Positions 24,894 to 28,468 of a DNA stretch of 64,000 nt are shown one piece after another. The position numbers and the translations under genes are program-made. Source of the DNA: Nitrospirota bacterium (lineage in GTDB: Bacteria > Nitrospirota > Thermodesulfovibrionia > UBA6902 > JAJYJJ01); the NCBI GenBank assembly GCA_021789595.1, contig JAJYJJ010000012.1, forward strand, positions 1-64,000. Direction: 5' to 3'. Positions within the stretch are counted from its first letter, which is position 1, and each line of letters opens with the position of its first letter. The notes under the pieces are model-generated. The model did not search any database. It was not told the origin of the DNA and saw nothing but the letters and a program-made list of their open reading frames with translations.

Positions 24894-25817
24894 TTATAAA
24901 GGAATAGACACCCTGGCCAGGATGTCCTCTATGACCTTTTCTGCATCTGATATGTATGTGCGGCTTTTCAATATGACCCTGTGTGCTAAGACAAGGGGAG
25001 CCGGCCCTTTTATATCATCGGGAACCACATAGTCCCTGCCCTCGTAATAGGCATTTGCCCTTGCTGCCTTAAGCAGGAACTGCGCACCCCTTGTGCTGAC
25101 GCCAAGCCTTATCCTCTCATCCCTCCTGGTTTCCGTGATAATGGACAGCAGATAGCCGAGCAGGTCTTCTTCAATCCTTACAGCATCCACCTCCTCCTGC
25201 ATCCTTACAATCTCCTCACCGCTGACAACAGGCGGCATGGATTCTATTGCCTCAAAACTGCTCAACTGAACAATAGCCTGTTTCTCAACATCAAAGGCTG
25301 GATAGCCGAGCTTTATGTGCATCATAAACCTGTCGAGCTGACTCTCAGGCAATGGGAATGTGCCGTGATATTCTATCGGGTTTTGTGTGGCAATAACCAT
25401 AAAGGGCTCTGGAAGGGTACGTGTCCTTCTCTCCACAGAGACGCGCCTCTCGTTCATGGCCTCAAGCAGTGCGCTTTGTGTCTTCGGGTTTGTCCTGTTT
25501 ATCTCATCGGCAAGGACTATGTTTGAAAATATAGGCCCTGGTTTGAACTCAAATTCCCGTGTGTCAGGGTTATATATGCTTACACCGATAATGTCTGATG
25601 GAAGGAGGTCGCTTGTGAATTGTATCCTCTGGAACGAACAATTTATGGCCTTTGCGAGGGTAAAGGCAAGCGTGGTCTTTCCAACGCCTGGCACATCCTC
25701 TATAAGAAGATGTCCCCTTGCAAGGAGTGTAACAACAGCCATCTTCACTGCCCTCTCCTTGCCCATTATGATCGAATCCATCCTCTTTTGCAGGAGTCTG
25801 AGGGATGTATCTGCCAT
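24894..25817 (-). CDS. MoxR-family AAA ATPase
   Basis: The 307-residue protein has Walker A GVPGVGKTTLAF, Walker B VLADEINR, sensor ATQNPIEYHGTFPLPESQLDRF (sensor and arginine region, read in parts) and the lid helix domain ending YVVPDDIK. MoxR ATPases act as chaperones for the assembly of VWA-domain and membrane proteins. It is the first gene of the operon with DUF58 and the transglutaminase. Confidence 0.95.
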   Translation of the reverse strand: MADTSLRLLQKRMDSIIMGKERAVKMAVVTLLARGHLLIEDVPGVGKTTLAFTLAKAINCSFQRIQFTSDLLPSDIIGVSIYNPDTREFEFKPGPIFSNIVLADEINRTNPKTQSALLEAMNERRVSVERRTRTLPEPFMVIATQNPIEYHGTFPLPESQLDRFMMHIKLGYPAFDVEKQAIVQLSSFEAIESMPPVVSGEEIVRMQEEVDAVRIEEDLLGYLLSIITETRRDERIRLGVSTRGAQFLLKAARANAYYEGRDYVVPDDIKGPAPLVLAHRVILKSRTYISDAEKVIEDILARVSIPL

Positions 25818-25967
25818 GATTAAAGTTTAGCCTATTTGCTGATATATCTCAACATGCCGTCCTATTACAAAGATCGAGATCGGATATGAGATGTAGTAAA
25901 ATCTACTGAGAATTTTCTGCGTATCATTGTATAATCTATAGACAGAAGGAGATGGACATGCAGACAG

Positions 25968-26121
25968 TTACTAAGAAGTTCATAAGTAAGGTTACATTCC
26001 AGGTCATTCCTGCTTGTCAGGAATCATTCTTACGATTCCGAACAAGTCGGAAGGATTGCGGACAAGCCGCAATGACAGAAAAGGACTGGTAATGTCTTCT
26101 TACTTATGACCGCATTAGTAA
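25968..26121. mobile_element. MITE-like element with long terminal inverted repeats
   Basis: The 340-base gap between moxR and dgt contains a 154-base element bounded by imperfect inverted repeats of about 33 bases. The left (25968-26000) and right (26088-26121, reverse strand) ends share TTACTAA, then TCATAAGTAAG after 5 bases, then ACATT after 3. Inside is a copy of a dispersed palindromic repeat (about 26003-26077) with the core CATTCCTGCTTGTCAGGAAT and a second arm GGACAAGCCGCAATGACA, related to the copy at 28375-28436. There is no transposase frame inside. An ATG with AAGGAG lies just before its left end (about 25950-25960) but reads only a short frame into the repeat. Confidence 0.55.
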
Positions 26122-26166
26122 GAAGGACCTTATTAAACTTACACGCTTGACAGGGGGTTGCACATT

Positions 26167-27210
26167 GTGAAAATGACCATCCGTGAACAGACAGAGGAGA
26201 TAGAGAGGAAGACCCTCCACCCAAAGGCACGGCTCGCCTCTGAGACAAAGGGCAGACTGAGAAAGGAAAAAGAGGAGGAAATAAGAACATGCTTTCAGAG
26301 GGACAGGGACAGGATAATATACTCAAAGGCATTCAGGAGGCTGAAACACAAGACACAGGTCTTCCTTGCGCCAAAAGGTGACCACTACAGGACAAGATTG
26401 ACCCATACCCTTGAGGTATCACAGATTGCAAGGACCATTGCAAGGGCGCTCAGACTGAACGAGGACCTGACAGAGGCCGCAGCCCTGGGTCATGACCTCG
26501 GACACACCCCTTTTGGCCATGCAGGTGAAGAGATACTGAGGGAAATCTACCCCAAGGGGTTTGAGCACTATGAGCAGAGCCTGAGGGTTGTTGATGTCCT
26601 TGAAAGAAATGGTCAGGGCCTGAATCTGACCTATGAAGTAAGGGACGGGATCTTGAAGCACTCGAAGGGAAAGGGCGAGATAATACCAAGGGCAGCACAC
26701 GATAAGGCAGAAACCCTTGAAGGCCAGGCAGTCAGGGTTTCTGATGTAATTGCCTATGTCAATCACGACCTCGATGATGCAATGAGGGCAGGTGTTTTAA
26801 GGAAGTCTGATATTCCCAGGGACCTGCTCAGCATCCTTGGAGATACCCATGCAAAAAGGATAGACACCATGGTAAAGGATGTCATCTACAGCACCATAGC
26901 CATAGACCTGAAATCCATAGATATGAGTCATGATATTGCAGAGGCTGTTTATAGGCTGAGGGATTTCCTGTTCGAAATGGTGTATGAGAGTGATACAACA
27001 AAAGGGGAATTCAAAAAGGCAAAGAAGATATTAAATGACCTCTATGATTATTATCTAAAACATATAGAGGATGTCTTCGTAGAAATACCCAAAGAGGCAA
27101 TAGGCGATAAACACAGGCTTGTATGCGATTTCATAGCAGGCATGACCGACAGATTTGCCCTTATGACCTACGAAAGATTATTCCTTCCTCAGCCCTGGAT
27201 GGTCGTTTAG
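26167..27210 (+). CDS. dgt: dGTPase (deoxyguanosinetriphosphate triphosphohydrolase-like)
   Basis: The protein is an HD-domain triphosphohydrolase: [22 protein letters not shown], then the metal-binding His in [16 protein letters not shown] in [14 protein letters not shown], and the distal Asp in [13 protein letters not shown]. It hydrolyses dGTP or other dNTPs to the nucleoside and triphosphate. I place the start at the GTG (26167), nine bases after AGGGGG; the ATG at 26173 and a TTG at 26158 are alternatives. It is a single-gene unit. Confidence 0.9.
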
Positions 27211-28288: not shown

Positions 28289-28326
28289 AATGGAATTATA
28301 ACATTAAATGAATAGCGAGCGTATTG

Positions 28327-28468
28327 CCCGCAGCTTGCTGCGGGGTATCTGAAAGGTGAATCTTTGTTCTTTATTGTCATTCCCGCTTGTCGGGAATCCT
28401 TCTTAAAGAAAAGATTCTGGACAAGCCAGAATGACAGAAATAAGGTAACCCTGTAGCTTGCTACAGGG
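28327..28468. repeat. cluster of palindromic intergenic repeats
   Basis: Three hairpins lie between the Usp and TauE/SafE genes. CCCGCAGC/GCTGCGGG with a TT loop is at 28327-28344, and the related CCCTGTAGC/GCTACAGGG with a TT loop is at 28449-28468. Between them, 28375-28436 is a 62-base unit with inverted ends TGTCATTC/GAATGACA and inner arms CCCGCTTGTCGGG and CTGGACAAGCCAG, resembling the core repeat at 26003-26077. These look like REP-type or MITE-like dispersed repeats and may act as transcription barriers. Confidence 0.65.

Follow-up and report, generated by a model that had tools for sequence, protein, structure and literature searches.

A MITE with IS630-type ends in a Nitrospirota genome and the hairpin core that it has in common with two other kinds of carrier

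The stretch of Nitrospirota DNA analysed here (64,000 nucleotides, referred to as the window) carries, between divergent genes for a MoxR-type AAA ATPase and an HD-domain phosphohydrolase, a 154-bp element that is free of a transposase gene and falls within the size range of MITEs (below about 500 bp; Table 1). Its coordinates, 25968-26121, were read directly from the sequence and are exactly those given in an earlier note made from the letters of the window alone, which had described a MITE-like element with inverted ends. The arms come here to about 31 bp, with 23 of the first 30 bases the same in the two ends, and the left end and the reverse-complemented right end have the three blocks in common that the note had seen in inverted orientation, namely TTACTAA (positions 1-7), TCATAAGTAAG (13-23) and ACATT (27-31), at identical spacing. 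When the two-block end pattern was searched for on both strands of the window with up to three mismatches, all three matches fell inside 25968-26121, against 0.07 expected from shuffles, and a separate repeat search returned inverted arms of 41 nt that are 73% complementary. Folded as single-stranded DNA, the element scores a z of -6.47, about 6.5 standard deviations better than dinucleotide shuffles, none of 200 being as good. The inner palindrome is indeed related to the repeat at 28375-28436, as had been claimed, the latter sitting in a different carrier element, to which we return below.

Table 1. Positions in the window of the element, its parts, the neighbouring genes and the second core-bearing element
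Feature	Position	Strand	Remark
Neighbour gene, MoxR-type AAA ATPase	24894..25817	-	
Whole MITE, IS630-type ends	25968..26121		154 bp
Left terminal inverted repeat	25968..25998	+	TTACTAAGAAGTTCATAAGTAAGGTTACATT; outermost T probably flanking
Left TA	25969..25970		Inferred target-site duplication
Hairpin core	26003..26076		Common to two other carrier families
Core hairpin unit 1	26003..26025	+	GTCATTCCTG-CTTGT-CAGGAATC
Extra ACAAG-loop hairpin, middle	26034..26052	-	Missing from the 140-bp copies C6:121401 and C22 (by eye)
Core hairpin unit 2	26054..26076	-	Reverse complement GTCATTGCGG-CTTGT-CCGCAATC
Right terminal inverted repeat	26091..26121	-	Reverse complement TTACTAATGCGGTCATAAGTAAGAAGACATT
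Right TA	26119..26120		Inferred target-site duplication
Neighbour gene, HD-domain phosphohydrolase	26158..27210	+	dGTPase-like, name inferred
Second element, core between two hairpin ends	28303..28468		IS200/IS605-like layout

The window belongs to a genome (G000) of 2,229,725 bases (2.23 Mb) in 36 contigs, in which a BLAST search with the element returned 27 hits at E <= 1, counting those of the element to itself on either strand, and a scan with the end pattern gave 30, some of them one end seen on both strands, against two for the reversed control. Eight copies have both ends (C29, which is the window element, C6 twice, C22, C15, C11, C16 and C36), and about five more (C32, C8, C4, C9 and C23) have decayed, retain a single end or have diverged at the ends. 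The search of the genome for the ends, proposed in the earlier note, thus returns a dispersed family and not a single copy, and the flanking sequences of the different copies look unrelated to one another. The GTCATT core is found in six of the eight two-ended copies; C16 has a different core, of CCTCCC type, and C36 has the look of a C16-type element that lost its core by deletion. At C16, C36, C9 and C23 (L063, L065, L067 and L070) the ends are of the same kind and the palindromic core is CCTCCC...GGGGAGG.

Relatives extend well beyond this genome. An end profile, R1, built from twelve ends of G000, which it finds by construction, has best E-values of 1e-4 or lower in 18 of the 47 genomes of the order (G000 included); at E <= 1 it reaches 42 of the 47, a cut too loose to count. 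Copies are many in G005 and G007, where R1 ends are especially numerous, and the 151-bp version from G007 gives 42 matches, of which 22 extend over 140 or more of the 151 query bases; among those 22, 15 are recent, near-identical copies with 91-100% identity. An exact-pattern scan of named genomes yielded 100 loci, and the 80 given by name come from MAGs of Nitrospirae, Thermodesulfovibrionia, Nitrospira, Nitrospiria, Nitrospinota, Syntrophobacterales and Syntrophaceae and from one Deltaproteobacteria MAG. In these 100 loci and 20 further ones the R1 ends are mostly paired, and the 87 pairs tabulated (84 distinct, three contigs being present twice) have lengths of 87-202 bp, which leave no room for a transposase gene. 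The script paired ends only at 40-260 bp, longer spacings being sought by eye; a complete IS, with two ends 0.7-3 kb apart, had one candidate spacing, on contig 22 of G005, which resolved into a 140-bp MITE and another end at a distance of 1.5 kb, separated from it by ordinary genes.

Of the 84 distinct pairs, 79 (82 of 87 with duplicates) carry TA at both ends, one base in from the terminus, and outside the TA stands a T at 145 of 168 ends (151 of 174 with duplicates). The end letters themselves had served to find the pairs, so that this conservation is partly circular. It is consistent with duplication of a TA target, which the earlier note had suggested looking for. The flanks were also joined at all 87 pairs (84 distinct) to look for genes spanning the insertion site, and of the six cases listed L218, L184, L251, L068 and L061 were judged to be chance and L212 convincing. 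The L212 gene (Nitrospirae X2_MetaBAT.7) is not broken by the MITE (L212:4575-4710), as might have been supposed, the reading frame being open through the element, which lies in frame in a 716-aa membrane-protein ORF and adds 44 residues; without the element and one TA the ORF encodes 672 aa. Two homologues, in G000 and G177 (58-59% identical), are without the 44 residues, a comparison made at the protein level, and the insert sits in a loop of variable length among homologues, so that the joint is located only approximately. The in-frame insert supports TA insertion independently, and in this MAG a MITE has turned into 44 residues of a membrane protein.

The ends also point to a transposase family. 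IS630 was found in none of ten genomes chosen mostly for their richness in MITEs, and the search was therefore widened to the phylum, where a DDE_3 search of 395 genomes gave 116 over the cut-off. R1 ends are present at only two of 30 IS630 loci fetched from this set, L304 (G187) and L307 (G403), whose transposases are 89% identical. In both, the end lies at the position expected of an IS630 element. In G187 the left end stops 24 bp before the first ATG of the transposase, which has a full DDE_3 domain (PF13358, E 1.4e-36), and in G403 and G435 the right end lies just behind the C-terminus or stop. A search of 230 genomes of the class with the G187 transposase found relatives at E <= 1e-40 in 18, and at 19 homologous loci R1 ends occur at four, all with 89-100% identity and two of them places already in the 30-locus set; none were reported at the 15 loci with 35-82% identity, a decayed end being visible by eye at the 82% locus. 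G403 has two more IS630-type genes, whose N-terminus is different, and neither has such ends. The window-type ends thus belong to one IS630 subgroup, with the reservation that some control loci are cut by contig ends, where a missing end is not always informative.

When the 33 + 11 unpartnered ends were read inward by eye, a transposase start was seen behind one only, L199 (G061), where an N-terminal HTH part directly follows the end (Pfam HTH_23 above and HTH_Tnp_IS630 below cut-off); further copies in that genome break off at contig ends. The L199 end is the best case, agreeing with each of the two window ends at 26 of 30 bases, followed by the transposase-side ends of G435 (24-25), G403 (23) and G187 (21-22), compared with a mean of 9 and a maximum of 20 in a shuffled-letter control. 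No single contig holds a complete IS bearing both ends of exactly the window type; a left end is seen in one copy or species and a right end in another, since contigs break off within the IS or its opposite end is unreadable. In plasmid records (99), IS630 transposases are less than 60% identical to that of G187. Within G000, a DDE_3 search gave nothing and the G187 transposase, the query that found relatives in 18 of the 230 class genomes, had no match at E <= 10; the genome is 99.11% complete, in 36 contigs, and such an empty result shows little by itself.

The earlier note had proposed that the element could be mobilised by a transposase elsewhere, and had named a transposase gene with matching inverted repeats as the thing to look for. 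The first half of this holds, in that IS630 genes of other MAGs (G061, G187, G403 and G435) have ends in common with the MITE, as expected of an autonomous partner, but the second does not extend to G000, where none was detected. The MITE looks orphaned in its own genome, and its current mobility there is doubtful for the same reason.

With several copies and a matching transposase, albeit in other genomes, the interpretation as a MITE is upheld, and we consider it very probable that the window element is an IS630-derived MITE, in which IS630-type ends surround a non-coding hairpin core and which was inserted at TA by a transposase acting in trans. Direct support comes from the multiple copies, the transposase genes that adjoin these ends in other MAGs and the insertion absent from homologues. 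A trans-supplied transposase of the IS630 family (Tc1/mariner-type) would have recognised the ends of about 31 bp, cut the element out in a presumably cut-and-paste reaction and inserted it at TA with duplication of the TA, as the family and the ends suggest; it would since have been lost from the genome, the copies being probably relics. A MITE family of Nitrospirota, Nitrospinota and Syntrophobacterales MAGs is thereby linked to a named transposase family, with ends that can be tested.

The core of the window element consists of two inverted hairpin units of the form GTCAT-N5-CTTGT-N5-ATC with an extra third between them. Across the fetched loci and the window, there are 182 distinct contexts that contain GTCAT-N5-CTTGT-N5-AT; these were gathered mostly by similarity to the window element, related copies included, and thus represent fewer independent events; all five stem pairs are complementary in 172 of them, as against a mean of 34.8 and a maximum of 53 perfectly paired when the 3' halves were shuffled, and 13 of 22 stem types are perfectly paired. 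Because the stems show compensatory change, their pairing is maintained, by selection or by hairpin-templated correction. REP and REPIN sequences are inverted hairpin units that go with RAYT (Y1) transposases, and the core resembles them in its two inverted units, which keep their stems paired around a conserved loop, and in that Y1 genes are present in 14 of the 15 genomes searched. It differs in that the units sit inside other transposon-like elements and that the CTTGT hairpin was seen at none of 30 fetched Y1 loci, drawn from a longer list. A RAYT as mover of the core is without support in these loci; the core, which is a REP-like set of hairpin units with maintained pairing, is not filed as REP.

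This core has three carriers, the IS630-type MITE, a CTAG-duplicating element and an IS200/IS605-like hairpin-ended element. For the second, G007 has seven loci that bear the second repeat with other ends, and CTAG flanks both sides at L170, L173, L174 and L176, the four in which the two ends can be seen. At L170:3014-3156 the CTAG-flanked element, of 143 bp, interrupts a putative kefB-like antiporter gene (the name is our own reading), whose frame continues, by eye, if the insert and one CTAG are omitted. Within G007, the cores of the CTAG element and of the IS630-type MITE are 93% identical over 84 bp, with no match outside the core. In the third, from G004 and G038, a pair of non-identical hairpins flanks the core and inverted ends are missing, an arrangement known from IS200/IS605 derivatives, and four G004 loci (L333, L334, L336 and L337) have the whole element in differing flanks. 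The second window element, 28303-28468, is 70% identical to the multi-copy G004 element over 170 alignment columns and, on that likeness, is a member of this third kind and not of the MITE family, its ends and orientation not being fixed because it is largely palindromic. It and its G004 and G038 relatives, with two hairpin ends and no inverted ends, recall PATEs, which are palindrome-associated elements related to IS200/IS605; they differ in that no TnpA gene flanked by matching hairpins came to light as a partner for this kind, a single Y1 locus having a loosely similar hairpin, among Y1 genes that are present in the genomes.

One core in three unlike carriers is the unusual part, and may surprise specialists. 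A tentative explanation, to which we give somewhat worse than even chances, is that the REP-like hairpin cassette serves as an interchangeable internal module taken up by three mechanistically unrelated non-autonomous transposons (IS630-type with TA, CTAG-duplicating and IS200/IS605-like), so that MITEs would be assembled from swappable ends and cores; pairing would be kept by selection or hairpin-templated correction, and the cassette may help its carriers. If so, it may make insertions tolerable as terminators, or act as a single-stranded structure in transposition. With its different ends and target sites, the set of carriers offers a natural test of how MITEs acquire their insides.

The recurrence of the core could also mean that the core alone is the mobile unit, REP/REPIN-like and inserted in an older MITE, the outer ends being passengers, a reading to which core copies without recognisable ends or carrier in G000 and G031 would likewise lend themselves. 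It is nevertheless very unlikely, as the same ends travel with CCTCCC-type cores and set the element boundaries, lone cores show no duplication to the eye, decayed IS630-type ends can be made out, again by eye, at two or more cores that had initially passed for lone ones (L009 and L344), and the 30 Y1 loci gave no CTTGT hairpin. Hardly tenable at all is the view of the window element as a regulatory or structural RNA or DNA feature of the divergent promoter region, with repeats that are functional and not transposon ends, for despite its position between divergent genes, its strong fold and a promoter-like match just to its left (25906-25935; the region has four promoter-like sites where 1.3 are expected), the element recurs at unrelated sites and in other phyla, has ends in common with IS630 genes and has no match in Rfam.

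Several known repeats resemble the element in part. The dRS3 repeats of Neisseria are ATTCCC...GGGAAT palindromes with a different spacer length, and may be a further parallel, a palindrome of this type occurring here. In the open-licence PMC literature we found no description of this MITE or of a core common to unlike MITEs; a related idea is reportedly developed in a study of mosaic Tn3-derived miniature elements. The available part of a MITE review (PMC10969869) makes no mention of IS630, nested or chimeric elements or cargo. BOX of Streptococcus, in which boxA and boxC surround a variable number of inner boxB modules, has a similarly modular build, but its modules are not described, in the portion of the source at hand, as cores of transposons of other families (PMC3049150). 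Of like kind is RUP, the repeat unit of pneumococcus, a 107-bp non-autonomous element proposed to be mobilised by IS630-Spn1, whose ends resemble those of an IS630-family IS and whose target is TA; its sequence and hosts differ, its partner IS is common in pneumococcus itself and, in the excerpts of these papers, no core common to unlike carriers is described for it (PMC2229807, PMC3049150).

L390:1431-2548 and L391:1446-2563 are two full-length IS630 copies of 1118 bp from a related clade whose ends are of the TATTAA..GTCTCA type, and a core-like GTCATTCC repeat starts no more than 20 bp from the right-hand end of L390; an assignment of the TCTCATAATA-type MITEs of G000 (C9 and C23) to this clade was rejected as weak, C23, the copy that was scored, agreeing at only 16-20 of 30 bases. 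At L213:878, on the same contig as L130 (G017), an IS630-type end pair stands almost back to back within about 50 bp, apparently without a core and with a weak second end. L271:3667-4167 holds two MITE-sized end pairs less than 500 bp apart.
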